35,190 nt of DNA from a virus: IMG/VR virus record IMGVR_UViG_3300034102_002786, positions 82,413 through 117,602 of that record; one strand, given 5' to 3'. This document shows positions 20,975 to 34,215 of the stretch, piece by piece. A program made the translations under genes and the position numbers. The stretch's first letter is position 1, and every line of letters begins with the position of its first letter. Below the pieces are notes generated by a model that saw nothing but the letters and a program-made list of their open reading frames with translations, did not search any database and was not told the DNA's origin.

Positions 20975-21265
20975 ATGCTGAAGTTTGAAAACCTTAAAAC
21001 AATAGAAGGGCATTTATTTCATAATGGCAGATACCTTATTTACAAATGTGAGGACTCATTGGTAAAAACGTATTTTCACATTAAGGATTTAAAATCACCA
21101 TTTGCACAAATAATTGAATTAAGAAAAGAAGCAACGCCTGTTTATATATTGGAAAATACTTTCAATAAGACGATGGTATATTGTGATTTGGATGTGATTA
21201 AAGATAAAACATTATTTCTTAAAAAATTAGAATTGATAATTGATACATCAGTAACTTGGGAATGA
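20975..21265 (+). CDS. ENI-family small protein (first cluster, member 1)
   Basis: First member of a repeated family of ~100-residue proteins. It starts MLKFENLKTIEGHLFHNG and shares the GHxFHN block with the member at 31389 (LTGHIFHNRT). It has an ILE- or LRK-like strand (IIELRKEATPVYIL) where other members have IxLxR. No signal peptide or catalytic motif. The next gene overlaps its stop by ATGA. Confidence 0.7.
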   Translation: MLKFENLKTIEGHLFHNGRYLIYKCEDSLVKTYFHIKDLKSPFAQIIELRKEATPVYILENTFNKTMVYCDLDVIKDKTLFLKKLELIIDTSVTWE

Positions 21266-21606
21266 TTACAATAGAAAACATAAAAAGAATTGAAAAAACG
21301 TATTGGAACTTTGATTCTAAAACTATACAATGTATAAGAGTAGAACAAGTCAATGATGACCTTATATTGAATAGCAATAGTTACACATTTGATTTTGATA
21401 TTGGATTAGGGGATATACCATTAGTCATTTGGTTGGACAGACACAAAAATAAAGATAATGAAGGTTACCGATTTGAAAACAATTTAATAGAAGCTACCAA
21501 TTACGTTGATATAAAGGACTTGACAAATTACAATAGGTTTATTGTTATGTTGCAAGATTATTTAGTATCAATACAAAGTGAAATAAAAAGAAACTTTTTT
21601 AAGTAA
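21262..21606 (+). CDS. ENI-family small protein (first cluster, member 2)
   Basis: I chose the ATG at 21262 (ATGA overlap with the previous gene); a TTG at 21256 would add two residues. The product begins MITIENIKRIEKTYWNFDSK, then SYTFDFDIGLGDIPLVIWLD containing the family core YxF...IWLDR, and ends in a long amphipathic helix (MLQDYLVSIQSEIKRNFFK). It is 114 aa. Confidence 0.75.
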   Translation: MITIENIKRIEKTYWNFDSKTIQCIRVEQVNDDLILNSNSYTFDFDIGLGDIPLVIWLDRHKNKDNEGYRFENNLIEATNYVDIKDLTNYNRFIVMLQDYLVSIQSEIKRNFFK

Positions 21607-21908
21607 TGCTTACAATAGAAAACATAACAAAGGTTTATAAAAAGGACGTTAGCAATTTGTGGCGTATTGGTAAAGTAGAAACAATAAATACCGCATACCT
21701 ATTCACACTAATGAACTCAGTTGGGCAAAGAATACAAATTAATTTAGAACGTAATCCAATAGGTGTACAATATGAATTATGGTGTTGGGATAGCTATCAG
21801 CACAATGCACCACTACCTACTGCAGTTCCTAAGCGTAGAATGTTGGATAAAACTAAATTACAAAACCCAGAACTATTAATACAACAAATAAAAGAATTAG
21901 TACAATGA
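21606..21908 (+). CDS. ENI-family small protein (first cluster, member 3)
   Basis: Begins MLTIENITKVYKKDVSNLWR, with YLFTLMNSVGQRIQINLERN as the family core: YxF, then IxLxR. The nucleotide start ATGCTTACAATAGAAAACAT is nearly identical to that of the copies at 22218, 22525 and 33904. It overlaps the previous stop by one base and ends in a helix (ELLIQQIKELVQ). Confidence 0.75.
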   Translation: MLTIENITKVYKKDVSNLWRIGKVETINTAYLFTLMNSVGQRIQINLERNPIGVQYELWCWDSYQHNAPLPTAVPKRRMLDKTKLQNPELLIQQIKELVQ

Positions 21909-22216
21909 GTAATTTATATATAACGCCGGACAATGGCAGTTTGACAATGAAGGGTAGCGGTAAGGTACAAATCAAAACTTCAATACAAATATACGGAACG
22001 GGTACTAAAATGCCGGTAACGGTTGAGGCTGATTTTACGGACATTCCGCATCACTTACATCAAACTTATTTTCAATCATTGGTAAGTCAATACAATACAT
22101 CGGTCAATGTATATAACAATACAAAGGATGACGAGCCGAAAACAATAGGGGAAAAAAAGAGTGAATGGCGGTTGAATAGAATTGTGGACATAATTAGTAA
22201 AGCAATATCAAAGTAA
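21905..22216 (+). CDS. Hypothetical protein, paralogue of the 10024 gene
   Basis: A 103-aa protein that interrupts the ENI array. The segment ADFTDIPHHLHQTYFQSLVS aligns with ADFSKIPDKYHEVFLNMFSS of the 10024-10332 product, and both have KIKTS/VQIKTS upstream. It starts on ATGA and is basic at the C-terminus. This intrusion suggests gene shuffling in the array. Confidence 0.65.
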   Translation: MSNLYITPDNGSLTMKGSGKVQIKTSIQIYGTGTKMPVTVEADFTDIPHHLHQTYFQSLVSQYNTSVNVYNNTKDDEPKTIGEKKSEWRLNRIVDIISKAISK

Positions 22217-22217
22217 T

Positions 22218-22559
22218 ATGCTTACAATAGACAACATACAAAATATAGAAGGTAAGGAATTCCAAATGAGCAGTGGACAGAAGTATGTAATTGGTATTGT
22301 ACGGAGTTGGTATGACCATTATAGTTTTGGGGTATTTCCACTAACCGAAATTGGGGTGGCTAGTATAAAGGATGGTATTGTATATAAATTGCATAGAACT
22401 AAAAAGAGTAGAAGGGGATATAAATTAGTTGCACCTAAAATGAGTTGGCAACCTTATGTGAAGCCGGAAAACTTAACCTTAGATAATTTCGTATTAGAAT
22501 TACACATACAAACTGGATTATTAAATGCTAACAATAGAAAACATAAACATACTCAATAG
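22218..22559 (+). CDS. ENI-family small protein (first cluster, member 4)
   Basis: Begins MLTIDNIQNIEGKEFQMSSG, with YSFGVF and VYKLHRTKKSRRG as the core, and shares the EGxxF block with members 20975 and 33093. Its stop lies 35 bases inside the next gene, so its last residues (NRKHKHTQ) are read from the start of the neighbour. This looks like a stop lost and replaced by a downstream one, or a deletion between tandem copies. Confidence 0.7.
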   Translation: MLTIDNIQNIEGKEFQMSSGQKYVIGIVRSWYDHYSFGVFPLTEIGVASIKDGIVYKLHRTKKSRRGYKLVAPKMSWQPYVKPENLTLDNFVLELHIQTGLLNANNRKHKHTQ

Positions 22560-22848
22560 TAAGTTCGCAGGTACGGCCGAATGGCAGATAGGTGAAATGT
22601 TTATAGGTTCACAAAACTATGTATTTGTAATCCACAAACGGGTAGGTTATTGGACAATTGGTGATTCTAAGCATGATGAATTGACGGTACGATTGCATAG
22701 GATAAAGGCAATGGATGGGTATGTAATGGAGACGGGAATAGTAAAACAAAACTATTATGGACGTTCGGTATATAGTATAGATAGAATGAAAACCATAACC
22801 GATTTTACAATATGCTTGGACAATCATATTAAAACTATAATAAGATAA
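22525..22848 (+). CDS. ENI-family small protein (first cluster, member 5)
   Basis: Begins MLTIENINILNSKFAGTAEW, with YVFVIHKRVGYW and ELTVRLHRIKAMDGY as the family core. It overlaps the preceding gene by 35 bases. It ends in a helix (DFTICLDNHIKTIIR). 107 aa. It closes the first array. Confidence 0.7.
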   Translation: MLTIENINILNSKFAGTAEWQIGEMFIGSQNYVFVIHKRVGYWTIGDSKHDELTVRLHRIKAMDGYVMETGIVKQNYYGRSVYSIDRMKTITDFTICLDNHIKTIIR

Positions 22849-23008
22849 TATATTCCTTTCAGTATTCATCGTATCGGAGAATCGGAAATCGGGTCGATGG
22901 GGAATTTTTTTGATAGTGTATGCCAACATAGCCAATAGGGAAGGGTTACAAACAATAGGGGTATATAGAATAAAAAAATAATGGGCGTATATTTAAATAA
23001 GAAAAAGG

Positions 23009-23251
23009 ATGGAAAACGAATATAGAGACCGGTTTAAAAGTAAGGTAAGGGAGGCCGGTTCGAATCACAAAGCCGTAATCGGAATATGTGGGGAATGGGG
23101 TATCGAAACCATCGAAACGGAATGGCTAAGCCCCGAAGTGTGGCGATTAAGTGGGGTATGGGTAAGTGAGGGATTGAATATAAAAATTTTAGGTGGGATT
23201 GCCGAAACTCAATTCCTATTAATACCAATAGAAGATGTACCAATATATTAA
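23009..23251 (+). CDS. Hypothetical protein (80 aa), distinct codon style
   Basis: The first gene of a zone with heavier use of CCC, GGG, AGG, GCC and ATA codons than its neighbours. The product MENEYRDRFKSKVREAGSNH is followed by GEWGIETIETEWLSPEVWRL, a Trp-rich stretch and a C-terminal hydrophobic strand. No family recognised. Another small ORF overlaps its end. Confidence 0.55.
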   Translation: MENEYRDRFKSKVREAGSNHKAVIGICGEWGIETIETEWLSPEVWRLSGVWVSEGLNIKILGGIAETQFLLIPIEDVPIY

Positions 23252-23330
23252 GAAAATACTAAGCGATATTTATAAAGGTTTCGAATGGGCCGAAAAGAAT
23301 AGACACCATAATGGGTGGGGTAAGCTATAA
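23235..23330 (+). CDS. Tiny hypothetical peptide (31 aa)
   Basis: ATG at 23235, overlapping the previous gene by 17 bases. Product MYQYIKKILSDIYKGFEWAE, then KNRHHNGWGKL; an amphipathic helix followed by a polar tail. Too short for certainty, but the dense packing in this zone and the absence of other frames favour it. Confidence 0.4.
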   Translation: MYQYIKKILSDIYKGFEWAEKNRHHNGWGKL

Positions 23331-23363
23331 GGCCGGACACGAATAACAATAATAGTACAGCAA

Positions 23364-23480
23364 ATGATAATAGTAACAATAGTATTCAGTATGTTAATAG
23401 GATACGGGATAGGACAGTACATAGTGGATAAGTGGATAAACACTAACCATAAGGATATAGAGGGAGACCGGAAAGATTAA
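23364..23480 (+). CDS. Tiny membrane protein (38 aa)
   Basis: Begins MIIVTIVFSMLIGYGIGQYI, one hydrophobic segment, then a hydrophilic C-terminus (WINTNHKDIEGDRKD). A single-span membrane peptide. No family recognised. Confidence 0.5.
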   Translation: MIIVTIVFSMLIGYGIGQYIVDKWINTNHKDIEGDRKD

Positions 23481-23517
23481 GTTCACTTAAAAGTAAACTA
23501 AATAAAATTTAGCTCAA

Positions 23518-23682
23518 ATGGAATTGAATAATGAATTAGAATTAGTAATAGGATGTACCCTGTATATAGTGTACATAGTGGGGATTAATTGGTCCTATAT
23601 AACGGAATACACTAAGGGTAACGGAGTAATCAAAAGAGGTACTGAATGGGATAATGATTGGCACCCTGATTCAAACTTATAA
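23518..23682 (+). CDS. Small membrane protein (54 aa)
   Basis: A 54-aa product with one hydrophobic stretch (LELVIGCTLYIVYIVGINW) and a polar acidic C-terminal half. Upstream, the bases at 23482-23502 (TTCACTTAAAAGTAAACTAA) resemble those before the lipoprotein gene at 27676, so this gene may use a similar upstream signal. Confidence 0.5.
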   Translation: MELNNELELVIGCTLYIVYIVGINWSYITEYTKGNGVIKRGTEWDNDWHPDSNL

Positions 23683-23692
23683 AAGGCCGGAT

Positions 23693-23806
23693 ATGAATCT
23701 TATTAAAAGGATAAAAAGGAGCTGTAAGGGAATGGAAGGGTCCGAGCTCCTACTATTCACAATACTAATAGTAGCCCTATGGATAATACTAACTCACACA
23801 ATTTAA
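23693..23806 (+). CDS. Tiny membrane protein (37 aa)
   Basis: MNLIKRIKRSCKGMEGSE, then a hydrophobic segment (LLLFTILIVALWIILTHT). A basic N-terminus followed by one membrane span is a typical arrangement for a small anchor. It overlaps the next ORF by 28 bases. Confidence 0.45.
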   Translation: MNLIKRIKRSCKGMEGSELLLFTILIVALWIILTHTI

Positions 23807-23958
23807 CGGGTAGGGAACGTATCGAATTACAATCCCGAATACAAAAATTGGAATGGTTACTCAAAGAATGTATCGGGTTAGAGGAATACGAGCTATGCTC
23901 ACAAATACGAAATATCATCCATAACTCTTACCAAAAAATAGATGAGTCCCAAAGATAA
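23779..23958 (+). CDS. Small helical protein (59 aa)
   Basis: ATG at 23779 within the end of the previous ORF. Product MDNTNSHNLTGRERIELQSR continues as a long charged helix (IQKLEWLLKECIGLEEYELC), with a basic-acidic end. It resembles a short coiled-coil adaptor. Overlapping frames suggest compact packing; only one of the overlapping genes may be expressed. Confidence 0.5.
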   Translation: MDNTNSHNLTGRERIELQSRIQKLEWLLKECIGLEEYELCSQIRNIIHNSYQKIDESQR

Positions 23959-24103
23959 AACCTTAAAGAGAATCGGTGAACTCGAAGGAATCTTAGCCCA
24001 TGCAAAGAGAATCAATCAACCGCCCCTAACCCGTCAAATCGAATACCTATTAAGAAATGAATACAAAGAATTACAAAAGATACGAAAACTCCGCCATAAT
24101 TGA
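23942..24103 (+). CDS. Small basic helical protein (53 aa)
   Basis: It overlaps the previous gene by 17 bases. Product MSPKDKTLKRIGELEGILAH, a helix with RINQPPLTRQIEYLLRNEYK, and a basic C-terminus (ELQKIRKLRHN). It may pair with the preceding small helical gene, since both share a leucine-rich helix (LEWLLKE, IEYLLRNE). Confidence 0.5.
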   Translation: MSPKDKTLKRIGELEGILAHAKRINQPPLTRQIEYLLRNEYKELQKIRKLRHN

Positions 24104-24114
24104 TTCACTACTTT

Positions 24115-24216
24115 ATGAAATCGAGACAAAGAAAAAACTATAAACCCTACTTCGAATTAGCACGTTGGGTATGGTGGGCTGGGCTTGTGGGGATGGCATT
24201 AACGTTATTATATTAA
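24115..24216 (+). CDS. Tiny membrane peptide (33 aa)
   Basis: A basic N-terminus (MKSRQRKNYKPYFELAR) followed by one hydrophobic segment (VWWAGLVGMALTLLY). Likely a single-span protein. It starts a pair with the next small membrane gene, separated by one base. Confidence 0.45.
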   Translation: MKSRQRKNYKPYFELARWVWWAGLVGMALTLLY

Positions 24217-24217
24217 T

Positions 24218-24376
24218 ATGCTACGTTTCATTCTTATAACAATAATATCTTTTTTTCTTTGTGGATTCCTTACAAATGATATAGATAAAATGATAGGATT
24301 AACAATGAGTATGAGCTTCTTTGTTACTATCTTTTGGGAATTGATTAGGTACTTTGTATTCAAAAAGAAAAACTAA
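24218..24376 (+). CDS. Small membrane protein (52 aa)
   Basis: Two hydrophobic segments, MLRFILITIISFFLCGFL and IGLTMSMSFFVTIFWELI, separated by TNDIDK, with a basic C-terminus (KKKN). A two-span membrane protein ending the tiny-gene zone. Function unknown. Confidence 0.5.
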   Translation: MLRFILITIISFFLCGFLTNDIDKMIGLTMSMSFFVTIFWELIRYFVFKKKN

Positions 24377-24741
24377 TTTGATACACACGTTTTTTAATTA
24401 CCATTGCTACCTAAATATAAGGATACATTTGTACTTTTATATTTTGATGGTACATAGTAATTGAAAACCACGTCAATGTCAATTTAACACACATTCCCAC
24501 AAACTTACACTTTTTACCACTTCATAGAATAAACAGAGGTTAATTATCAGTTTATCATATCACAATGAGACCATATACGGATTCTTTAGCAAACGGCAAA
24601 ATTTTTCGTGGGGTATTTTCACACACATTCGGCCATTCGGATATTCGTATAAACAAATAAGCTACACAAAATTTGGCTATGTCAAAAATATTTCGTATAT
24701 TTGTATATCAGAAATTCTATTTATAACCCCAAACGATATTT
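24377..24741. other. Intergenic region before class B promoter
   Basis: This 365-base gap holds the class B promoter described next. Upstream of that I see only a weak Bacteroidota-like box (TACATTTG at 24424-24431, -33 spaced 17 bases, below the usual 19-20), and a possible 31-aa ORF at 24565-24660 (start MRPYTDSLANGKIFRG) that has no supporting signal. No terminator is clear. Confidence 0.5.
24672..24703 (+). promoter_or_regulatory. Class B promoter
   Basis: TTTG at 24672-24675 and TATATTTG at 24696-24703, spaced 20 bases, in TTTCGTATATTTGTATA. It resembles the promoters at 3888, 15162 and 27167. It drives the metallopeptidase gene at 24742. Confidence 0.8.
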
Positions 24742-25101
24742 ATGAGAGTAAGTAATAAAAAAGCTGGTATGCGATTTGATTGTAACCGTTTATGGAATTG
24801 GGCCTACGAGAAGCTCGGTGAGAGTAGATGTGGAGCTATAGCATTCTATTGGGATACACGTGATGAAGCTGAGTTAGGTTACTATGATTGGGAAAAGACT
24901 ATTTGGATTAATTTAGCCCAATGTAAAAGAATGATAAGTGTCCAAAAAACTATTCTACACGAATGGACACACGCACAACAATCGTACAGGTGGTATAACC
25001 ATTATCAATTGAAATACGGATACAAAAAGAATCCATACGAAATACAAGCCCGAGAGAACGAAAAATTAGTTAAGCGTGCATACAAACGAAAATCAAAATA
25101 A
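24742..25101 (+). CDS. Putative zinc metallopeptidase (HEWTH)
   Basis: A 119-aa protein with His73-Glu-Trp-Thr-His77 in TILHEWTHAQQSYRWY and a downstream acidic helix (NPYEIQARENEKLV, Glu100 or Glu105 as possible third ligand). The layout resembles small SprT- or WSS1-like metallopeptidases, although the N-terminal segment is unique. It is the fourth HExxH protein in the window and has its own promoter. Substrate unknown. Confidence 0.7.
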   Translation: MRVSNKKAGMRFDCNRLWNWAYEKLGESRCGAIAFYWDTRDEAELGYYDWEKTIWINLAQCKRMISVQKTILHEWTHAQQSYRWYNHYQLKYGYKKNPYEIQARENEKLVKRAYKRKSK

Positions 25102-25447
25102 TCCGGTCCGAAAAGTTGGAAACCCTGGCCGTAAAGCAAAGCCGGGTGAGCAGATAGCTTACAACAAAACACTACATTGTAATATGCAGCTATTCGAAAA
25201 TGAAGCGGGCGAGTATTACCCAGTAGTGGATAGGATGGACCAGCCCACATTAGTAAGGGGCGAATATCATCCTATTGGTAATCGTTTTCATTACCCTAAG
25301 CAGTGGGGTAGAAAATACGCTGCTACAAAACTATTGGAGCATAAAATAGAAGTACAAAAGGAAATAATAAGTAATGCTAATACTGAATTGGATAAATTAG
25401 AAAGGTGTTTAGCTTCTATAAAGGATTGGTCAGATACAGACGAATAA
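25076..25447 (+). CDS. Hypothetical protein (123 aa), GTG or later start
   Basis: The frame starts with GTG at 25076, overlapping the metallopeptidase gene by 26 bases; the next in-frame ATG at 25184 would lose conserved-looking residues (GRKAKPGEQIAYNK). The N-terminal part is basic and Gly/Pro-rich, the middle YYPVVDRMDQPTLV, and the C-terminus (LEHKIEVQKEIISNANTEL) a coiled coil. No family recognised. Confidence 0.55.
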   Translation: MHTNENQNNPVRKVGNPGRKAKPGEQIAYNKTLHCNMQLFENEAGEYYPVVDRMDQPTLVRGEYHPIGNRFHYPKQWGRKYAATKLLEHKIEVQKEIISNANTELDKLERCLASIKDWSDTDE

Positions 25448-25456
25448 ACAATATAT

Positions 25457-25630
25457 ATGCTTTCCGAAAACGAAATGATTCAAAGGGCCGCCGTTATTGG
25501 TATGGACGAAGAGGTAATCAGTTATGCTAAACAAATTCAACGTCAGCTTTCAGCAGAAGGTGATACGGCAGAATGGTTGGATTGCTTAGAGATGGCCTAT
25601 AACGAATTGATTCTCAATCAGTTACACTAG
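25457..25630 (+). CDS. Small acidic helical protein (57 aa)
   Basis: ATG at 25457, ending on TAG. Product MLSENEMIQRAAVIGMDEEV continues as two helices (ISYAKQIQRQLSAEGD and AEWLDCLEMAYNELILNQ). It is 9 bases downstream of the previous gene and ends that unit. Confidence 0.6.
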   Translation: MLSENEMIQRAAVIGMDEEVISYAKQIQRQLSAEGDTAEWLDCLEMAYNELILNQLH

Positions 25631-25652
25631 CAAAAAATAATGGTAAAAAAGC

Positions 25653-25683
25653 TTGGAATTCTCAAGTATTTTCCGTAACTTTA
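25653..25683 (+). promoter_or_regulatory. Orphan promoter reading into a noncoding region
   Basis: TTG at 25653-25655 and TAACTTTA at 25676-25683, spaced 20 bases. No coding frame follows for more than 300 bases; the first transcribed bases would be GGGAGTGGAGGGCGGGG. It could make a small RNA or a leader that reads into 25985. Confidence 0.5.
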
Positions 25684-25754
25684 GGGAGTGGAGGGCGGGG
25701 TAAGCCCCATTAGGGACCGGCAGGCTAACCTGTTGGTTTTCAATCGCTTATGGA

Positions 25755-25782
25755 ATGTTATATAACGTATATTATGTTAAGT
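25755..25782 (+). other. dif-like XerCD site 1
   Basis: The bases split as an 11-base arm ending ATAA (ATGTTATATAA), a 6-base centre CGTATA and an 11-base arm TTATGTTAAGT. The centre plus right arm match 15 of 17 bases of the Escherichia coli dif centre and XerD arm. The left arm is much less similar, except for its inner ATAA. XerCD recombinases of the host act on such sites. Confidence 0.4.
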
Positions 25783-25828
25783 CACCAACACGCTGATTAT
25801 CAATCGGTTAGCTCGAAAAAAGGGGTGT

Positions 25829-25856
25829 TTTTCTTATATAATATATTATGTTAAAT
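25829..25856 (+). other. dif-like XerCD site 2
   Basis: The right arm TTATGTTAAAT is identical to the E. coli XerD half-site, with centre AATATA and a degenerate left arm. It lies in direct orientation 74 bases after site 1 and is flanked by GGGTGT (25823-25828) and ACACCC (25860-25865), an inverted repeat. It could be an Xer site, or an AT-rich promoter-like sequence. Confidence 0.35.
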
Positions 25857-25931
25857 AGGACACCCGAGGCGGGGCGCAACGTGTTGATAACCAATGGTTT
25901 ATACTTTTTTAAAAAATAATTGTAAAAAGTC

Positions 25932-25962
25932 TTTGCTATTTCAGGAATTTTACCTATCTTTA
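25932..25962 (+). promoter_or_regulatory. Class A promoter
   Basis: TTTG at 25932-25935 and TATCTTTA at 25955-25962, spaced 19 bases, followed by CTATGTAATAAAGATTG. The initial transcribed sequence ACTATGTAATAAAG is shared with the promoters at 11370, 28220 and 29635. It drives the genes from 25985. Confidence 0.8.
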
Positions 25963-25984
25963 CTATGTAATAAAGATTGAAAAT

Positions 25985-26197
25985 ATGAGTTCCGTATTAA
26001 ACGTTAAGTTCGAATCAGAAGCCCAAATTAAGGCCATTACCAAAATGTTAAGTTCTATTTTCGGATGTCAGGTCCGCCCACGTGGTAGACATAGTAACCG
26101 AAAAGCTGTATTGGGTTACCGTTGGATGAGAGGTACTCAAAACGATATTCCGTGGAGAATGGCGGAGCGTGTTTCATTTTATACTATTTCTAAATAA
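25985..26197 (+). CDS. Basic hypothetical protein (70 aa)
   Basis: A promoter-proximal 70-aa gene. The product starts MSSVLNVKFESEAQIKAITK, then a strongly basic stretch (CQVRPRGRHSNRKAVLGYRW), and ends in a helix. The basic centre may bind nucleic acid. No family recognised. Confidence 0.6.
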   Translation: MSSVLNVKFESEAQIKAITKMLSSIFGCQVRPRGRHSNRKAVLGYRWMRGTQNDIPWRMAERVSFYTISK

Positions 26198-26215
26198 TTT
26201 TAACCCCTTATTGAT

Positions 26216-26431
26216 ATGAATCTATTAGAAAGAATGTCCCAAGCCGATGCGGCAGTAGTTAAAGAATTTAGTGCTAAGTATCCACTTACCGGTGGTGATT
26301 TGGTAAAAGAGTTGAAACGTAAGGATTCGTGGTTGGACCTTTCGTATCGCTCGGTTACTCAATTGTGTTCGGTTCTAAAGAGTGGTGATTATTCCCCTAT
26401 CTATATTGATAATCTTTTTTCTAACAAATAA
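26216..26431 (+). CDS. Hypothetical helical protein (71 aa)
   Basis: The ATG follows TTTAACCCCTTATTGAT, which carries the AACCCCTTA motif. The product MNLLERMSQADAAVVKEFSA looks helical throughout; LVKELKRKDSWLDLSYRSVT might form a helix-turn-helix-like unit, though I cannot confirm one. No family recognised. Confidence 0.6.
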   Translation: MNLLERMSQADAAVVKEFSAKYPLTGGDLVKELKRKDSWLDLSYRSVTQLCSVLKSGDYSPIYIDNLFSNK

Positions 26432-26445
26432 TTAAACCCCTTATA

Positions 26446-26745
26446 ATGAGAAAAATAACTAAAGAGTCTGTCCAAGCTTTTATCGAAGGACGTAAGTTTA
26501 ACAAAGGTAACATGAGTGTTGAAGTTGATTTAGGATACACTAAGTTAAAGTTGCATGGTAACACGATCGCCACTATTGATGCGCTGGGTGTTATGAGTGT
26601 ATCAAACGCAGGATGGGCTAGTAACACTACAAAAGAACGTTTGAATGGACTACCCAATGTACGAATCAATCAAAAGAATTGGAATTGGTATTTGAATGGT
26701 AATGAGTGGGATGGTACTTGGAGACGTATTGGATTTGTAAAATAA
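26446..26745 (+). CDS. Conserved phage protein (NAGW-type, 99 aa)
   Basis: The blocks MRKITKESVQAFIEGRKFNK, LHGNTIA, SVSNAGWASNTTKERLNGLP and WYLNGNEWDGTW match a family I recall from phage genomes (ItxNAGWxTxTTKERLNxL), with no known function. It follows AACCCCTTATA before the ATG and is 99 aa. Confidence 0.75.
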   Translation: MRKITKESVQAFIEGRKFNKGNMSVEVDLGYTKLKLHGNTIATIDALGVMSVSNAGWASNTTKERLNGLPNVRINQKNWNWYLNGNEWDGTWRRIGFVK

Positions 26746-26772
26746 TTTTAAACCCCTTAATTTAATAATATT

Positions 26773-27135
26773 ATGGCTACTAAGAAAAAAGTAACTAAAC
26801 CGGTATCTAAGAAAGTAACTAAGCCGGCGGCCAAGAAAAAGGCCACAAAGAAAGTAAGTAAGAAAGCTACGGCTATCGCTAAGGTTAAAGCCCTTAAACA
26901 TAAACGTATCGCTATGGAGCCAGTCCCACACGATACACTTACCGAAATGGTAAAGGTAACCGCAGGTCCTGAATGGGCTAGTGAATTGTTTGGCAAACGT
27001 TATGTATCCCTTAACTACGCTATTATGGCTATTGATACTATTGATGCCGAAAGGAATATAGCTAAAGGTGCTAAATCAGTACTAAAGGAAATGGATGCTG
27101 CTGGTATAACCCCTTTGGATGTTAATAACATCTAA
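26773..27135 (+). CDS. Histone-H1-like basic-tailed protein (120 aa)
   Basis: The first ~44 residues are almost pure Lys/Ala/Thr/Val (MATKKKVTKPVSKKVTKPAA, then KKKATKKVSKKATA), like the C-terminal tails of histone H1 and of bacterial Hc1-type proteins. Residues 45-120 (PHDTLTEMVKVTAGPEWASE and later helices) form a compact acidic-neutral domain without recognised homologue. Tails like this bind DNA or RNA non-specifically. The ATG follows TTTTAAACCCCTTAA by 13 bases. No stop or frame disruption is seen. Confidence 0.7.
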   Translation: MATKKKVTKPVSKKVTKPAAKKKATKKVSKKATAIAKVKALKHKRIAMEPVPHDTLTEMVKVTAGPEWASELFGKRYVSLNYAIMAIDTIDAERNIAKGAKSVLKEMDAAGITPLDVNNI

Positions 27136-27142
27136 AAATAAA

Positions 27143-27907: not shown

Positions 27908-27921
27908 ATGCCCGTACTACA

Positions 27922-27960: not shown

Positions 27961-28118
27961 TTAATACAACTCGTATTTAACTAGCTAACTAACACGTTAG
28001 CAAATATCGTATGTAAAAAACAGCAATGTAATTCCGTTTCTTTCACGTTATCCCTTATTTTACCGGTCCCGTCTTCTTAGGGCCCTATATTGAAAATAGT
28101 CACAAATTGTACTCGAGC

Positions 28119-28165
28119 TAACTAGTTGATTATCAATAGGCCGGGCTAACGTGTTGATTATCAAT
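28119..28165 (+). repeat. 19-base repeat family, copies D (two)
   Basis: TAACTAGTTGATTATCAAT (28119-28137, 17/19) and the perfect TAACGTGTTGATTATCAAT (28147-28165) are in direct orientation, 28 bases apart. The second is followed by AAAGAATTTTTAAAGATTT, like copy A. It is 31 bases before the class A -33 box. Confidence 0.85.
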
Positions 28166-28195
28166 AAAGAATTTTTAAAGATTTCGTGGAAAATA

Positions 28196-28227
28196 TTTGG
28201 CCATATCGGCTAACTGCCCTATCTTTA
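28196..28227 (+). promoter_or_regulatory. Class A promoter
   Basis: TTTG at 28196-28199 and TATCTTTA at 28220-28227, spaced 20 bases, then CTATGTAATAAAAATG. It drives the genes from 28250. Confidence 0.85.
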
Positions 28228-28249
28228 CTATGTAATAAAAATGATAAAT

Positions 28250-28558
28250 ATGTATAACGAAAACCCCTTCAGACAGTTCTCCGCTAGTAAAATGAGTAAT
28301 AACCCCCGTTTCAACGTATCGGTTGAATATACGGACTTTATGGGTAATACTCACCGTATCCAATGTAAGACACGTAAAGCCCTTAATTCGGCTCGTGAGT
28401 TCCTTAGTATCTTTAAAGCTGAATCTACAGCGATTAATAAGATATTGGGTGAATACCCCGTTAAGATGGGTAAGTTCCCTAAGAAGTTCCACTCGGAAAT
28501 TAAGAGTGACCTTCAGGCCGCTGGTTTCGGTACTATTTCTAAATACCTTTTAAAATAA
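28250..28558 (+). CDS. Basic hypothetical protein (102 aa)
   Basis: I prefer the ATG at 28250 (MYNENPFRQFSASKMSNNPR) over one at 28241, by analogy to the leader spacing at the other class A promoters. The product is basic, with likely strands (RFNVSVEYTDFMGNTHRIQC) and a helical C-terminal half (FHSEIKSDLQAAGFGTISKY). No family recognised. Confidence 0.65.
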   Translation: MYNENPFRQFSASKMSNNPRFNVSVEYTDFMGNTHRIQCKTRKALNSAREFLSIFKAESTAINKILGEYPVKMGKFPKKFHSEIKSDLQAAGFGTISKYLLK

Positions 28559-28563
28559 TCACT

Positions 28564-28680
28564 ATGGGTACTACAATCACCTTAATCGAAGCCATCATTG
28601 TATCAGCTGTTTCTTTGTTTGGTTATGTGTTCTTTAAAACGGCTTATGAGTATTTTTTTCAAACCCCTAAATCTAAGTAA
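28564..28680 (+). CDS. Tiny membrane protein (38 aa)
   Basis: ATG at 28564. Product MGTTITLIEAIIVSAVSLFG, then YVFFKTAYEYFFQTPKSK. One hydrophobic segment with a basic C-terminus, typical of a small single-span peptide. It is placed between two small soluble genes of one operon. Confidence 0.5.
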   Translation: MGTTITLIEAIIVSAVSLFGYVFFKTAYEYFFQTPKSK

Positions 28681-28681
28681 T

Positions 28682-28999
28682 ATGAATATGAATAGTACAA
28701 CCGAAAAATTGGTTAATGTGTTTTCTCAAGATGAGTTGTCCGCATTGATGACCGCTGTAGCTGGATATGTGAATGTGAAACGTAAGCAAGGTAGAAGTAC
28801 CGGTATTGAGGTGGGTGTGTTTAACAAAGTGTGTGATGCTCTATTAGCAAGTAACTACTTAAACGCTGTTGAAGTTGAAACGATAGCCCGTAAAAACCCC
28901 TATTCAAAGGATGTACCTAAAGAGTATTGGGGTACGGCTAGTGGAAAGGCCCTATTGGCTGAGATGGAAGAAGGTAGTACAAACGCTTATTCTTACTAA
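28682..28999 (+). CDS. Hypothetical helical protein (105 aa)
   Basis: I chose the ATG at 28682, just after the upstream stop. The product starts MNMNSTTEKLVNVFSQDELS and is helical, with basic turns (VKRKQGRSTGIEVGVFNKVC). It has a conserved-looking C-terminal segment (GKALLAEMEEGS). No family recognised. Confidence 0.6.
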   Translation: MNMNSTTEKLVNVFSQDELSALMTAVAGYVNVKRKQGRSTGIEVGVFNKVCDALLASNYLNAVEVETIARKNPYSKDVPKEYWGTASGKALLAEMEEGSTNAYSY

Positions 29000-29018
29000 A
29001 CCCTACAAACCCCTTACT

Positions 29019-29234
29019 ATGTTAAAAGCTGAAATATATAAGAATCTTACTACGGTATCCGATGACCTTATTATGGATACATTCACCTACCCCTATTGTC
29101 CGCAAGTTGGTAACTTTGGTTATATGTACAATGGTATCCTATGGCGTGGTATAGATAGTTCTGATATAGTAATGAGGTCCGATGAGCAGATTGATAGACA
29201 GATATATAAGATATTAAGTAAATTAAATAAATAA
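29019..29234 (+). CDS. Hypothetical protein (71 aa)
   Basis: The ATG at 29019 follows AAACCCCTTACT, with the AACCCCTTA motif. The product begins MLKAEIYKNLTTVSDDLIMD and continues with an aromatic region (YPYCPQVGNFGYMYNGILW), then a helix. It lacks the ENI-family core, so I keep it separate despite its MLK start. Confidence 0.6.
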   Translation: MLKAEIYKNLTTVSDDLIMDTFTYPYCPQVGNFGYMYNGILWRGIDSSDIVMRSDEQIDRQIYKILSKLNK

Positions 29235-29237
29235 GAT

Positions 29238-29507
29238 ATGACAGTAAGTGAACAAATTAAAGTGGACCTGTTAGATATGGTCCTAAAGCATGATTATTCG
29301 TATATGTATTCCGATGACCATAGAGCTTGGGAAAGCGGTATGAGATACGAAAAAGAAATCGAAGCTAAGATACATGCACTATGTGCTATACACAAAGAAG
29401 ATGCATATAGCTTAATAGCTGAGTGTTTGGGTACACGTAGTGAACAATACACCGATGGACTGACACACAAAGTAATTAAAGGTTGGTTCAAGCCCTATAT
29501 AGGATAA
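29238..29507 (+). CDS. Hypothetical protein (89 aa)
   Basis: A soluble, mostly helical protein (MTVSEQIKVDLLDMVLKHDY, then WESGMRYEKEIEAKIHALCA). It is the last gene before a terminator. No family recognised. Confidence 0.6.
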   Translation: MTVSEQIKVDLLDMVLKHDYSYMYSDDHRAWESGMRYEKEIEAKIHALCAIHKEDAYSLIAECLGTRSEQYTDGLTHKVIKGWFKPYIG

Positions 29508-29539
29508 AGATATTATTTGGTTAGTTATATTTTCATTTT

Positions 29540-29569
29540 CCCCGCCTGTTTCTACCGGTGGGGTTTTTT
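29540..29569 (+). terminator. Intrinsic terminator
   Basis: CCCCGCC (29540-29546) pairs with GGTGGGG (29557-29563) around TGTTTCTACC, followed by TTTTTT. It ends the operon from the 28196 promoter. Confidence 0.85.
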
Positions 29570-29611
29570 ATTTAGATTAATTCCAAATTACAAAAATATT
29601 TTCCAAACCCC

Positions 29612-29642
29612 TTGACTTTTACGAATATATTACTTACCTTTA
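29612..29642 (+). promoter_or_regulatory. Class A promoter without nearby 19-base repeat
   Basis: TTG at 29612-29614 and TACCTTTA at 29635-29642, spaced 20 bases, then CTATGTAATAAAAAG. It shares the class A initial sequence but no 19-base repeat is visible between the terminator and its -33 box. It drives genes at 29666 and after. Confidence 0.75.
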
Positions 29643-29665
29643 CTATGTAATAAAAAGATAACGAT

Positions 29666-29920
29666 ATGAATACTCTCCGATTTAACCGCCACGAATTGTT
29701 CTCCGAAAAAATGATGGACTTTCACTCCACTACCCTTCGAATGGTTGAAGATTATCATATAGCTAGAGATGAAAGCTGGTTCACCCCACTATACAATATG
29801 TTGTGTGGTGTGTGGGATGGATACTACTATACTGAAATGTTAGAGATGGCCAAACAAATGGGATTACCTACCCACATCACTAACCGAATTGAATTTACTG
29901 AACGATACATTAAACTTTAA
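29666..29920 (+). CDS. Hypothetical protein (84 aa)
   Basis: A promoter-proximal gene; MNTLRFNRHELFSEKMMDFH, then a helical centre and CGVWDGYYYTEMLEMAKQMG. It looks helical and aromatic. No family recognised. Confidence 0.6.
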   Translation: MNTLRFNRHELFSEKMMDFHSTTLRMVEDYHIARDESWFTPLYNMLCGVWDGYYYTEMLEMAKQMGLPTHITNRIEFTERYIKL

Positions 29921-29923
29921 TAT

Positions 29924-30148
29924 ATGAGCTTTTCTAAACCCCTTTTACACGAAACTATTCTAGCTAACTTCGGTCCCTACCAAGTGGATACGGTAGTTGG
30001 TACAAATCAAATGTTCCTTCGATTTGGATATTGGCGGAGAATAGATGCTAAGCTACTTCAGGATATAGTAGGTGAATCTATTATAGTAGTAGAGGACTCA
30101 TTAGATGATGATGATTGTGGTACACTATGGAGCTATAAACTAAAATGA
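29924..30148 (+). CDS. Hypothetical protein (74 aa)
   Basis: Starts MSFSKPLLHETILANFGPYQ, with predicted strands (VDTVVGTNQMFLRFGYW) and an acidic segment (EDSLDDDDCG). It overlaps the next small membrane gene by 4 bases. No family recognised. Confidence 0.6.
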   Translation: MSFSKPLLHETILANFGPYQVDTVVGTNQMFLRFGYWRRIDAKLLQDIVGESIIVVEDSLDDDDCGTLWSYKLK

Positions 30149-30300
30149 AAAACTGGCAATTAATACTAACCGCCACTCTTAGCGGTGTTACTTTTGTGTT
30201 CACACTTACCGGTCCTAACTTACTTACCCCTACGGTTAGTTGGACACTGTGTGTACTATCCCTATATAGTATAGGCTATAAAAATAATTCAGCTAAATAA
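30145..30300 (+). CDS. Small membrane protein (51 aa)
   Basis: ATG on an ATGA overlap. Two hydrophobic segments (WQLILTATLSGVTFVFTLTG and VSWTLCVLSLYSIGY) with a short polar tail (KNNSAK), so a two-span membrane peptide. It is the last gene before a 558-base noncoding region. Confidence 0.55.
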   Translation: MKNWQLILTATLSGVTFVFTLTGPNLLTPTVSWTLCVLSLYSIGYKNNSAK

Positions 30301-30699
30301 AATACTCTTAGTATATACCCATGTAACATAGACCCGATGTGGGTTGCATGGCATGGGTGATACATATTGATACATACCTATTCCTATGCAACCGTTGGTA
30401 GCAGTGGGTTGCATGAGACGGGACGGGGGGGACTGAATTTCTTGTGACTGAGAAAATAAAAGTTTGGCATGACCCACGCCTATGCCGTTTCCGCCCCGAG
30501 CCCGGTTTTTTCCCGTATAGGATTTTTATAGGGTAAGGTAGTACCTAGCCTGCCTTAATAGGGTGGACCTCTATCAATTTAGCTATTTCCCTTTTAGGAT
30601 GGATTAGACCCCCTTATTTTTGATGGTTTCGGTATGGGGTGTATATTGGGGTGGTTTTATGGTAAAGCTCGGGAAATCACAGTAAAACCATATAATATG

Positions 30700-30767
30700 T
30701 ATCTCTTTAATAATCAATAGGTTAGCTCGGGTTTAGAGCGGGCCCGGCTAACGTGTTGATTATCAAT
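30700..30767 (+). repeat. 19-base repeat family, copies E
   Basis: A perfect TAACGTGTTGATTATCAAT lies at 30749-30767, followed by GAGGAATTTTTGGGG as at copies A and D. A weak copy (TAATCAAT end shared, 13/19) lies at 30700-30718. Between them GGTTAGC (30719-30725) and GGCTAAC can form a short hairpin. It is 23 bases from the class A TTG box. Confidence 0.75.
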
Positions 30768-30789
30768 GAGGAATTTTTGGGGTTTTTCA

Positions 30790-30819
30790 TTGCTATATGG
30801 GTATTTTTTCGTATCTTTG
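30790..30819 (+). promoter_or_regulatory. Class A promoter
   Basis: TTG at 30790-30792 and TATCTTTG at 30812-30819, spaced 19 bases, then GTATGTTAATAAA. The initial sequence is a variant of CTATGTAATAAA. It drives the genes from 30859 and possibly the ENI cluster beyond. Confidence 0.8.
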
Positions 30820-30858
30820 GTATGTTAATAAATTTCTAAATAAACAAAAATTAAGATT

Positions 30859-31116
30859 ATGAAAAGTTTTAAAGTTTCAGATGGTAAGGTAATGGTAGAT
30901 GGTGTCCTTTATGGTACTACTCCTATTAATGATGTAAAGGTTAGGGGTAAGGTAGGTACTATCCATTCTATCAACATTGAAGGTAGAGGTCAGTTCTTCC
31001 CTATTAGTGGGTTATTCAACGATGGTTCTATAAAGGTTGTTGATTCTACTACTGATGTATTGGATGTGGATGTAAAAGTAGAAAAGAAGAAAAGGGCTAA
31101 AAAGAGTTCTAAGTAA
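30859..31116 (+). CDS. Small basic-tailed beta-rich protein (85 aa)
   Basis: Begins MKSFKVSDGKVMVDGVLYGT and continues with a repeating strand pattern (DVKVRGKVGTIHSINIEGRG), then ends in a Lys-rich tail (VEKKKRAKKSSK). The beta-rich, Gly/Asp-marked strands resemble a small OB or SH3-like domain. It follows AAAAATTAAGATT before the ATG. Confidence 0.65.
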   Translation: MKSFKVSDGKVMVDGVLYGTTPINDVKVRGKVGTIHSINIEGRGQFFPISGLFNDGSIKVVDSTTDVLDVDVKVEKKKRAKKSSK

Positions 31117-31161
31117 TCCTTTTATACTATATACTATTTCTTTATTATAAATCCCCTTATT

Positions 31162-31398
31162 ATGTATAACAATTACAATGATGTCCAAGCGTATGAGGCT
31201 TTGGAGAACGAAAGATTACAAACGGCATTAGACCCGAAATACCAACAATGGGTAAAGGAACTTAACATTTCTCAATCGTATGTAGAGCCCGATGGGTTTA
31301 TTAGGGCTAAGCAATTAAATGAGCAATACGACTTTTCAAACAATAGTTCTAAATCACCAATTCTTAACTTTTTAAAGATTAAAGGTATATGGTCTTAA
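31162..31398 (+). CDS. Hypothetical protein (78 aa)
   Basis: Preceded by AATCCCCTTATT and its ATG. The product MYNNYNDVQAYEALENERLQ is a helix followed by KYQQWVKELNISQSYVEPDG and a C-terminal helix (SPILNFLKIKGIWS). It overlaps the next gene by 10 bases. No family recognised. Confidence 0.6.
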   Translation: MYNNYNDVQAYEALENERLQTALDPKYQQWVKELNISQSYVEPDGFIRAKQLNEQYDFSNNSSKSPILNFLKIKGIWS

Positions 31399-31748
31399 AC
31401 ATTAGTGGTATCAATAAACTTACCGGTCACATATTCCATAATCGGACTATCCAAAAGGTTTCATTAGCAGCAAGATATGGTGTGGATTCATCTTCGTATG
31501 TATTTTATTTTGCCGAAATACCTTATTACAAAAATGACCCGAATGGAATGAAACGATGGGAAGATGAATTTGAGATTCACCTATACCGCCGCCCCAAACA
31601 TGGTAAGTACGAATTGTTTTGGATGGGATTGCATGGTGTGACTTGTATGGAATTGGGTTGGAAAGATATTCAAAACTTTTCTACCTTTATTTCATCGTTA
31701 GGTATGGTGGTTGAAAGAGGTAAAAGGTATTGGACAGAAAATAGATAA
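31389..31748 (+). CDS. ENI-family small protein (second cluster, member 1)
   Basis: Starts MVLNISGINKLTGHIFHNRT, sharing the GHxFHN block with the first-cluster member at 20975. The core is YVFYFAEIPYY, then FEIHLYRRPKHGKYELFW, matching the family's YxF...IxLxR...YxL pattern. 119 aa, overlapping the previous gene by 10 bases. Confidence 0.75.
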   Translation: MVLNISGINKLTGHIFHNRTIQKVSLAARYGVDSSSYVFYFAEIPYYKNDPNGMKRWEDEFEIHLYRRPKHGKYELFWMGLHGVTCMELGWKDIQNFSTFISSLGMVVERGKRYWTENR

Positions 31749-31751
31749 GAT

Positions 31752-31859
31752 ATGATAAAGTATATAAAACAATATTGGAACGCATTAGGTGATAGTGAAA
31801 AGTTAATGGTAATCTATTTGGTTGCTATGGCTATCCTTATTCTTATCGCCACAAATTAA
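31752..31859 (+). CDS. Tiny membrane peptide (35 aa)
   Basis: MIKYIKQYWNALGDSEKLMV then IYLVAMAILILIATN: one hydrophobic segment at the C-terminus. It interrupts the second ENI cluster and lies between two of its members. Confidence 0.5.
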   Translation: MIKYIKQYWNALGDSEKLMVIYLVAMAILILIATN

Positions 31860-31863
31860 TCCT

Positions 31864-32178
31864 ATGTTAAAGATTAAAAACCCTGAAAGGTTGAATATTA
31901 CAACAAAAGCTCTAACCGCTGATATACATTGTGAAATTGTATATCAAAGAGAAAATGCAGCTGAATACCTATTTCGTATTCTAAAGGATGGTGTATTGGA
32001 TGCTAAGATGACTATATCAAAAGATTGGAATGTAGGCGATACCGTTGTTGTACGATTTTGTGATAAGGATAATCATTGGATTCATTCTACTTACGAATTG
32101 GATTATGAAATGGTTAGTAATCGTAGTAAATTTATTTTTTGGATTACTGAAAGATTCCTTGATGATTATAAACAATAA
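31864..32178 (+). CDS. Possible divergent ENI-family protein
   Basis: I chose the ATG at 31864 (MLKIKNPERLNITTKALTAD). The core AAEYLFRILKDGVLDAKMTI resembles the family's YxF... strand but the conserved IxLxR block is replaced by VVVRF, so membership is uncertain. 104 aa. Confidence 0.55.
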   Translation: MLKIKNPERLNITTKALTADIHCEIVYQRENAAEYLFRILKDGVLDAKMTISKDWNVGDTVVVRFCDKDNHWIHSTYELDYEMVSNRSKFIFWITERFLDDYKQ

Positions 32179-32179
32179 T

Positions 32180-32479
32180 ATGCTAACCATAGAGAACTTA
32201 GATAAGATTACCAATTGCATTGGATTCAATGTGTGGAATGTTACTTATGATACTCATTATTCATTCTTTGTTGATGTGGGTGATAGCAAAGCAATAGAAG
32301 TTACACTAGCCCGTCATAAACCAAAATTACAAAATGGTAAACCACATCCACATAGTGATGAATATCTTTTACAATGTCACCATATCAGTTGGAAACACTA
32401 TTGGGTAACAAAGAATGATATAAGGGATATATGGGAGATGAGCAGATTAATTGAATCATTTATAAACGAAGTTAAGTAA
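32180..32479 (+). CDS. ENI-family small protein (second cluster, member 3)
   Basis: Chosen start at 32180, one base after the previous stop. MLTIENLDKITNCIGFNVWN begins the family signature; HYSFFVDVG and IEVTLARHK give the core. The C-terminal WEMSRLIESFINEVK is the typical closing helix. It overlaps the next gene start by one base. Confidence 0.75.
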   Translation: MLTIENLDKITNCIGFNVWNVTYDTHYSFFVDVGDSKAIEVTLARHKPKLQNGKPHPHSDEYLLQCHHISWKHYWVTKNDIRDIWEMSRLIESFINEVK

Positions 32480-32787
32480 TGCTAATAATAGATAACATAG
32501 AGAAGATTAAACAATATCCATTCAACGTACATTGGAGATGCGATTCGGTTAGAGAAACGGATACCTTTTATCATTTCGTTGTTGAACGCTTGAATATAGA
32601 AGGTAAGATATGTGATGTTAGAAGGATAACCCTATCGAGAGTTGATATACCAAATATGGATGAGAATGAATTATGCTACGAATTATATTTGGATGATAGG
32701 AAGTTGAATCAACTTGTCACAACTTCATACTTAAAAAGTATAAACAACTTAGTAAATAAATTTACGGAAATATTACGGAGCTTATAA
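32479..32787 (+). CDS. ENI-family small protein (second cluster, member 4)
   Basis: Starts MLIIDNIEKIKQYPFNVHWR on a TAATG overlap. The core is TDTFYHFVVERLN, then VRRITLSRVDIPNMDENELC, matching YxF and ITLxR. It ends in a helix (SINNLVNKFTEILRSL). 102 aa. Confidence 0.75.
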   Translation: MLIIDNIEKIKQYPFNVHWRCDSVRETDTFYHFVVERLNIEGKICDVRRITLSRVDIPNMDENELCYELYLDDRKLNQLVTTSYLKSINNLVNKFTEILRSL

Positions 32788-32791
32788 TAAT

Positions 32792-33100
32792 ATGCTAAAG
32801 ATAGAGAACTATAAGAAATTAGTAGGATTAAAGTTTGGCGATTGGACTTGTGGACTAGTTGTAGAGCACGAAAAGATTTATCGTTTCTCGTTCCATAATG
32901 GGAATTCATCCTCTGCATCATATGGGGATACCTATTGGATAGAATTAGATAGAACATCCTACATAGATGCGGACGGTGATGAAGTCTACCCCTTAAACCA
33001 CCCGAATAAAAAACTAATAACAATAATATCAAAACAATATGTTAAGAAGATGGACAAGGTATCCACATTCTTCAACCAAATAATCAGAGATTATGCATGA
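32792..33100 (+). CDS. ENI-family small protein (second cluster, member 5)
   Basis: Starts MLKIENYKKLVGLKFGDWTC, with the GxxF block as VGLKF. The core is KIYRFSFHNGN, then YWIELDRTSYIDADG, matching YxF and IxLxR. It ends in a helix (VSTFFNQIIRDYA). The next gene overlaps its stop by 8 bases. Confidence 0.75.
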   Translation: MLKIENYKKLVGLKFGDWTCGLVVEHEKIYRFSFHNGNSSSASYGDTYWIELDRTSYIDADGDEVYPLNHPNKKLITIISKQYVKKMDKVSTFFNQIIRDYA

Positions 33101-33422
33101 CGTAGAAAAATATCTACATATAACCAACCATAAAAGAATGGAAGGTGAAGAATTCTACGATGGAAGATTCGTATGTACTACCACAGTAGAGACAGATACA
33201 AATTATCGTTTCCAATTCTGTGACCACAATTGGCCATCTCTCCGATATATATGGGTGGAAGTGAGCCGTTTTGGGGAATGGGACTCAAAAGATAGTAGAT
33301 GGGTATATAGATTAAACTACCCACAATCACCCACACATATCGTTTCTGCCCAATTCCTTTCGGATTTCCATAATGCGATTAAGACGATGGGAACGGCATT
33401 AAAATATTCAATAGATAAGTAA
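33093..33422 (+). CDS. ENI-family small protein (second cluster, member 6)
   Basis: MHDVEKYLHITNHKRMEGEE begins with a longer variable N-terminus; EGEEF is the family's GxxF block, TDTNYRFQFCDH and RYIWVEVSRFG the core. The C-terminal helix follows (FHNAIKTMGTALKYSIDK). It overlaps the previous gene by 8 bases and the next by one. Confidence 0.75.
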   Translation: MHDVEKYLHITNHKRMEGEEFYDGRFVCTTTVETDTNYRFQFCDHNWPSLRYIWVEVSRFGEWDSKDSRWVYRLNYPQSPTHIVSAQFLSDFHNAIKTMGTALKYSIDK

Positions 33423-33901
33423 TGAGTATAATGCGAACAAAGGGAAACGGAAAGATAGTGATTACATCCACTCCAAAAGGTGGTGGCTGGGCTTCTGCTA
33501 TGGGCTGGGCGGCTAAGTATTATCAACAAAATCAAACCCAAAAAAATCCTAACTTCGACACGAATAGGAAGTTGGTGATACAAAACTATGCAAAGGATTT
33601 GGGTAGTGGTGTATTTTGGGGATGGGATGTTATCGCTGCTGATGAAACCGATGAAAATTATTTATTCCAATTAAGAAACCGAGAGAATGGTTCATTGAGG
33701 GTTTACATCACATTGGGTAGAGAATTACAAGTTTCCGATTTAGAGAACAACCTATATCAGATGTATCAATGTTATATACATGATGATTTAGCACAATGGG
33801 ATAAGAGGTTTTGGTTGGATGCTAAGGATATTAATCATAAAACCTTTTGGGGAATGATAGAAAAAATTGTGGATGGTTATCATCCATTATTACCATTTTA
33901 A
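33422..33901 (+). CDS. Long ENI-family protein with N-terminal extension
   Basis: A 159-aa relative. The first ~65 residues (MSIMRTKGNGKIVITSTPKG, then a Gly/Trp-rich stretch) are not found in the other members; the rest shows the core (ETDENYLFQLRNRENGSLRV, then YITLGRELQ). It could be a fusion, or the ancestral longer form. It lies within the second array and overlaps the previous gene by one base. Confidence 0.65.
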   Translation: MSIMRTKGNGKIVITSTPKGGGWASAMGWAAKYYQQNQTQKNPNFDTNRKLVIQNYAKDLGSGVFWGWDVIAADETDENYLFQLRNRENGSLRVYITLGRELQVSDLENNLYQMYQCYIHDDLAQWDKRFWLDAKDINHKTFWGMIEKIVDGYHPLLPF

Positions 33902-33903
33902 TT

Positions 33904-34215
33904 ATGCTAACAATAGAGAATTTTAAAAAAATAAAAAACCAATGGTTCGGTGATTGGCAGATTGGTAAAGGTATTATGGAAGAAAAAACCTATTATGCTT
34001 TACAATCACAACACTCAAGTGGAAAACGTAGTGTAACGATAGTTATACTAAGAGAGCCTAAGATGGATGAGAATTTCGAAAAGTATTATTCAATATCTCT
34101 GATAGATGATAATAAAGGTAGTTCATCTATAATAGAAGATATTATATACCATACTGTATTAGAAGATATGGAATTATTTGGAGAATCATTAGTACATTAT
34201 TTAAATACAATATAG
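33904..34215 (+). CDS. ENI-family small protein (second cluster, member 8)
   Basis: Chosen start at 33904, two bases after the previous stop. MLTIENFKKIKNQWFGDWQI begins the signature and its GDW echoes the 32792 member (FGDWTC). The core is TYYALQSQHSSG, then VTIVILREPKMDENF, matching the YxF/IxLxR pattern with ALQ in place of F. It ends the array. Confidence 0.7.
   Translation: MLTIENFKKIKNQWFGDWQIGKGIMEEKTYYALQSQHSSGKRSVTIVILREPKMDENFEKYYSISLIDDNKGSSSIIEDIIYHTVLEDMELFGESLVHYLNTI

Follow-up and report, generated by a model that had tools for sequence, protein, structure and literature searches.

The viral DNA analyzed here, called the window, is a stretch of 35,190 nucleotides (nt) at positions 82413-117602 of a 117.6-kb IMG/VR virus record. 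It contains two tandem arrays of small genes belonging to one protein family, here named ENI, whose members typically start with the peptide MLTIENI. The reading proposed for these arrays, to which we give an even chance, is that of an integrase-free cassette array of a new phage family, with members acting as diversified, probably host-directed binding proteins. The genes share a 21-nt start box (consensus ATGCTAACAATAGAAAACATA) which spans the peptide MLTIENI. The near-identical starts, already seen in a first-pass annotation of this DNA, mark the boundaries of whole-gene gain and loss, a point beyond that annotation.

The first-pass annotation had described about 13 tandem genes of one expanded family. 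An iterated profile, which gathered 159 distinct ENI sequences over 154 loci, found exactly 13 such genes in the window, where that annotation had placed them, all on the + strand and with expectation (E) values of 4e-7 or better; the reversed-sequence decoys of this profile reached E 0.03-0.05 at best. The observation of one expanded family is confirmed. With a six-member profile, 12 of the array open reading frames (ORFs) outranked all other six-frame ORFs of the whole record (n=570). Core members are also linked by pairwise phmmer comparisons (e.g., 32792 vs 33093, E 4e-10), and identities among the window members range from 10 to 28% (median 19%). Some details of the annotation need correction: 21905-22216 lies within array 1 and is not an ENI member, and the junction types are mixed, with stop-to-ATG spacings across all phages mostly of +1, -7 or -1. 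When the array regions of 15 phages were combined, the 231 members clustered at 40% identity into 117 groups, of which 66 contain a single sequence. The genes of the two arrays are listed below in amino acids (aa), with E values from the iterated profile, mismatches to the start box, group numbers and related phages designated by G numbers.

20975-21265, + strand: ENI gene, array 1, 96 aa; E 8.6e-11.
21262-21606, + strand: ENI gene, array 1, 114 aa; starts with the box, 2 mismatches; E 8e-13.
21606-21908, + strand: ENI gene, array 1, 100 aa; box with 1 mismatch; group 3, orthologues in 5 other phages; E 1e-16.
21905-22216, + strand: non-family gene within array 1; 89% identical in G004; no profile match.
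22218-22559, + strand: ENI gene, array 1, 113 aa; box with 2 mismatches; cassette junction vs G004; E 4e-13.
22525-22848, + strand: ENI gene, array 1, 107 aa; box exact; cassette junction vs G009; E 8e-16.
31389-31748, + strand: ENI gene, array 2, 119 aa; very divergent, modelled separately; E 1.8e-8.
31864-32178, + strand: ENI gene, array 2, 104 aa; lowest-scoring member; E 3.9e-7.
32180-32479, + strand: ENI gene, array 2, 99 aa; box with 3 mismatches; E 1.6e-12.
32479-32787, + strand: ENI gene, array 2, 102 aa; modelled; E 8e-18.
32792-33100, + strand: ENI gene, array 2, 102 aa; E 7e-17.
33093-33422, + strand: ENI gene, array 2, 109 aa; group 1, orthologues in 6 other phages; E 3e-13.
33422-33901, + strand: ENI gene, array 2, 159 aa; extended by 49 residues at the N terminus; group 9; E 8.5e-16.
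33904-34215, + strand: ENI gene, array 2, 103 aa; box with 4 mismatches; ends array 2 in group 4 phages; E 1.9e-15.

The start box was examined through codon usage, counted on one representative per group. Leu2 is encoded by CTA in 65% of cases vs 13% later in the genes (p 8e-43), and in other genes of these phages CTA makes up 12% of the leucines at codons 2-4. The same preference is found for ACA at Thr3 (85%, later 42%), AAC at Asn6 (63%, later 26%) and ATA at Ile7 (91%, later 60%), and is gone by Ile10. The stop codon of the upstream gene often lies within the box (TGC TAA inside ATGCTAAC), and in 28 groups the ATG is not directly preceded by a stop. Stop overlap is not the whole reason for the box, because CTA is retained in 36 of the 43 groups with an upstream stop just before the ATG, and it was rejected as the sole cause of the conserved starts. 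In the 117-kb record, sites with up to four mismatches from the box are found at family starts exclusively. The near identity of the first ~20 bases, claimed by the first-pass annotation, is therefore a DNA-level feature with constrained synonymous codons, and the box is a real DNA element beyond the peptide motif.

The clearest indication of what happens at the box comes from contigs G011 and G014, which are 99.4% identical over 7.7 kb and differ there by exactly one cassette. Their identity continues across the box of the extra gene in G011 as far as base 18, after which G014 directly enters the body of the next gene. The box of G014 carries A13 and C18 of the extra gene and not G13 and T18 of the next one, and is thus a hybrid box, in one clear case. 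In three further pairs (window 22525 and G009 4760, window 22218 and G004 2117, G007 15346 and G004 14675), 30 of 30 upstream bases are identical and are followed by the box and then by a different family gene; several more junctions retain 28-29 of these 30 bases. Inside the arrays, 50% of the alignment ends lie between +10 and +40 relative to a family start, vs 9% expected, and alignment beginnings concentrate at or just 5' of the ATG.

Among seven records searched for recombination genes, three have a RecA gene. The tyrosine recombinase PF00589 was found in none of the seven, which are possibly fragments, and in 14 of 14 control genomes; an integron was rejected on this basis. Reverse transcriptase PF00078 was likewise found in none of the seven, the control search detecting it in three genomes, and a diversity-generating retroelement was also rejected.

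The conserved positions of the ENI alignment are L2, I4, N6, Y31, F33, L52, R54 and Y67, and most of the others are near saturation, with an entropy of at least 3.5 bits in 55 of the 95 columns. Across the 231 members, N6 is kept in 94%, Y31 in 97% and Y67 in 79%, and position 54 is R in 83% and K in 12%. Conservation alternates along the alignment in the fashion of a beta-sheet core, so the surface is here defined by sequence, as the high-entropy positions alternating with the hydrophobic core, rather than by computed burial. This agrees with the earlier description of a retained core with little likeness outside it. At the 55 variable columns, paralogues agree at 7.6% (8.5% is expected from composition) and orthologues of 40-75% identity at 48.5%. 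Because orthologues agree to this extent and paralogues only at chance, each ENI paralogue keeps a surface of its own.

The near-invariant positions comprise N6, Y31, R54 and Y67 besides the hydrophobic core. Nothing among them looks like a catalytic set, and a common enzyme was rejected. ENI members range in isoelectric point (pI) from 4.7 to 10.2 (median 7.8) and in net charge from -9 to +13. They are thus not uniformly acidic, DNA mimicry was rejected, and the variation in charge argues against any common DNA mimicry or nucleic-acid binding.

The first-pass annotation had also proposed fast divergence. The ratio of nonsynonymous to synonymous substitution rates (dN/dS) of orthologues is mostly 0-0.5, with one pair in the whole set at 1.2, and neighboring genes are typically near 0.1-0.2. 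ENI orthologues are under purifying selection, weaker than that of the neighboring genes, and positive selection was rejected, as the ratios stay below 1. The divergence lies between old paralogues. Present-day fast divergence is thus not supported, and old divergence together with whole-gene turnover replaces it as the description of the family.

A model of the 32479 protein, obtained with AlphaFold2 and 129 relatives, has a predicted local distance difference test score (pLDDT) of 94.1 and a predicted template modelling score (pTM) of 0.84. Its elements are a helix (7-12), six strands (19-26, 30-38, 44-53, 57-59, 64-71 and 74-81) and a helix (88-100). The ENI domain of ~100 residues is thus predicted to consist of a short N-terminal helix, an antiparallel beta-meander and a C-terminal amphipathic helix. 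The very divergent 31389 protein, modelled from a ten-sequence alignment without core members, gave pLDDT 83 and the same order of elements, and by this order, rather than by superposition, the two models were compared. Different folds were thus not obtained, in line with the common fold expected from the first reading.

An alternative reading of the conserved residues, which we consider unlikely, is that N6, Y31, R54 and Y67 form one shared site for a common hub or ligand, the variable surface being drift and the copies serving dosage. The high conservation of these four residues across the 231 members suits such a site. However, both N6 and R54 may have a structural role: N6 comes before the model's first helix, for which it could serve as N-cap, and R54 comes after strand 3. 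Moreover, the surfaces are maintained among orthologues and agree at chance among paralogues, which does not fit drift.

Searches for known relatives were negative within their scopes, in line with the first-pass annotation, which knew of no named family. Profile scans with single members gave no family. Scans of 129 members against Pfam, PHROGs and NCBIfam gave no recurrent named family, with isolated one-member matches only, and the best match of the ENI profile among PDB sequences had E 0.47. Searches of phage records by tblastn, with one member and with the consensus, gave no real match. No published description was found in literature searches, subscription journals being outside their coverage. 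Foldseek returned nothing at E <= 0.001 from the PDB with both models (TM-scores up to 0.43 among the 50 matches listed) or from BFVD with the 32479 model (up to 0.46 among the 50 listed); the best TM-scores among the matches listed were 0.42-0.46. Judged against Pfam, PHROGs, NCBIfam, the PDB and BFVD, the ENI family is new.

Related viral contigs were located in two ways, by matching the start motif as a degenerate DNA pattern and by scanning with the neighboring cyclophilin. The family is carried by 17 IMG/VR records (about 16 phages), counting the window's virus and at least one apparent near-duplicate pair. Fifteen of 16 whole records have 6-35 copies each, a further 207-kb record has 12 and a 221-kb record has 8. 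The window's virus also occurs as a 160-kb contig; a search with one protein returned that virus plus a single short match, which was spurious. No ENI copies were seen in records whose polymerase or cyclophilin was more distant. At least 118 bacterial or archaeal stretches with the start motif were examined (4014 ORFs, best E 0.0074), and because none of them holds a member, no host or prophage copy was found.

The arrays, usually two per phage, are colinear across phages. The cyclophilin and a gene for a YgjV-like membrane protein lie upstream of array 1, and a nucleotidyltransferase lies downstream of array 2. ENI gene content varies strongly from phage to phage, and groups 7 and 22 are found in array 1 in some phages and in array 2 in others. 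On a quick tree, the array label changes 11 times vs 17 in shuffles (minimum 10 of 300). This suggests that clades tend weakly to stay within one array, and that exchange between the arrays takes place.

The family-B DNA polymerase of the window's virus is T4-like, and the closest described relative is Microcystis phage Mel-JY01 (52% identity), in which no ENI match was found at E <= 1. TTTG-N17-22-TANNTTTG is the Bacteroidota promoter consensus. Sites of this form number 11 vs 2.3 expected, and because of this excess a Bacteroidota host is likely.

The analysis itself shows the family, its predicted fold, the arrays, the box, the box-to-box turnover and the purifying selection on orthologues. 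Taken as cassettes, each ENI gene would encode one domain of ~100 residues with the core kept and the surface specific to the paralogue. The arrays would be transcribed as operons with coupled translation. Since the shared box may act as a 21-base direct repeat, homologous recombination could delete or insert whole genes without breaking frames, and the phage RecA present in relatives could serve this recombination. The proteins would be nonenzymatic binders, each with its own partner, and the partners are most likely host proteins, for takeover or anti-defense, because the genes have an accessory setting, no catalytic site is conserved and it is the repertoire and not the sequence that varies between close phages. 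Phages might then adjust their repertoire through cassette gain and loss. That the proteins counter variable host targets, as the first-pass annotation proposed, is plausible. For function as host-directed binding the odds are about even.

Several points weigh against this reading. The ENI proteins have no similarity to a known anti-defense or takeover protein. Their dN/dS gives no sign of an arms race. The mosaic pattern of synonymous divergence is not peculiar to the arrays, as flanking genes vary likewise. The precision of the alignment ends (~+20) comes partly from the shared box and from reciprocal counting, and the hybrid box of G014 is the single case in which a crossover is located directly, either within the box or at its end.

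In polymorphic toxin systems, too, small and diverse immunity proteins are encoded in arrays. The ENI genes resemble such arrays and could be antitoxins or immunity proteins which neutralize variable toxins or effectors made by hosts or by rival phages. This would be a narrower-target special case of the host-directed binders, and has a small chance of being correct: no toxin gene was recognized near the arrays and there was no match among immunity families, searched via Pfam and NCBIfam. A role in the virion, as small decoration or tail-associated subunits diversified for adsorption surfaces, is improbable. Surface diversity on a common scaffold would suit adsorption too, and some members have Pro-rich or transmembrane extensions. 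On the other hand, no structural gene was recognized in the window, which has small accessory genes for a co-chaperonin, a cyclophilin, a glycosyltransferase and a ligase, and zinc-finger fusions of the domain exist as well. Neutral amplification, in which short direct repeats drive tandem duplication and copies persist without much function, is equally hard to credit: the box is a direct repeat clearly mediating gene loss or gain and orthologue dN/dS exceeds that of flanking genes, but reading frames are unbroken, dN/dS stays well under 1, orthologues keep their surfaces, order is colinear and the window has no near-identical recent duplicates (maximum identity 28%).

The cassette reading of the arrays has partial counterparts in known systems. 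The host-takeover module of Bacillus phage SPO1 comprises 26 small genes in operons, several of them growth-inhibiting, which interfere with different host processes (PMC6873191). The ENI arrays are similarly tight same-strand clusters of small genes, for which operon transcription is inferred here. In contrast, the SPO1 module as described is not made of copies of one fold and has no shared start box (PMC6873191); its genes are early and several targets are known. Anti-defense clusters (acr/aca neighborhoods) place small genes against different host systems next to each other on mobile elements (PMC7648647). Their inhibitors of distinct defense systems have no common family and no box. Both are functional analogies only.

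Short boundary sequences for homologous exchange have been proposed for phage mosaicism and are not identifiable at most mosaic boundaries (PMC3029335). The ENI box resembles them as a short conserved gene-junction sequence that would shuffle whole genes by homologous recombination, and differs in lying inside the coding starts of one family, in its many uses per genome and in its visible hybrid junction. It is a clear natural case of the mechanism proposed in PMC3029335, that is, of short boundary sequences mediating whole-gene exchange in phages. As in integron arrays, whole-gene cassettes are gained and lost at a repeated short sequence. Unlike in integrons, no tyrosine recombinase was found with the ENI arrays, the repeat is coding sequence and not attC, and the cassettes are one protein family; because spacing is mostly within -7 to +2 bases, there is no room for attC between the genes.

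The family combines a confident unmatched predicted fold with more than a hundred divergent groups. It is apparently limited to large phages that are uncultured, and new host-binding proteins would readily be drawn from it. A broader proposal, in our view somewhat less likely than not, is a modular repertoire system new to phages, in which a new small fold is the diversifiable scaffold, the box combines an N-terminal segment, an upstream stop and RecA-type homology, and a host-directed effector set is rebuilt by recombination without an integrase.

A 14th ENI copy lies outside the window, at record positions 60808-61353 (L006:808-1353), with a zinc-finger-like N terminus (CxxC...HxxC), and G015 13820-14260 similarly joins the ENI domain to a CxxC/HxxC zinc-finger-like N terminus. 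Other fusions have transmembrane N termini (G001, G005), helical N termini (G010, G021) or Pro-rich C tails (group 23). The non-family gene of array 1 belongs to a second small protein family with two window copies (10024-10332 and 21905-22216, phmmer E 7e-6), the latter being highly conserved between phages.

Two classes of repeats were also seen in the window. The intergenic repeat CCCGGCTAACGTGTTGATTATCAATAA has 3-4 copies (5034-5105, 28114-28212 and 30743-30814), shortly 5' of promoter-like repeats, and is perhaps a regulator site. The second class, with consensus TATCTTTACTATGTAATAAA, is found immediately 5' of start codons (11340-11402, 25925-25987, 28190-28252, 29605-29667 and 30782-30844); it could form a phage-specific promoter class alongside the Bacteroidota-type TTTG...TANNTTTG sites. 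Finally, record positions 20001-40000 (L004), as judged from ORF sequences only, contain closely packed genes of glycosyltransferase-like, methyltransferase-like and sugar-epimerase-like types, in a run larger than is usual in a phage.

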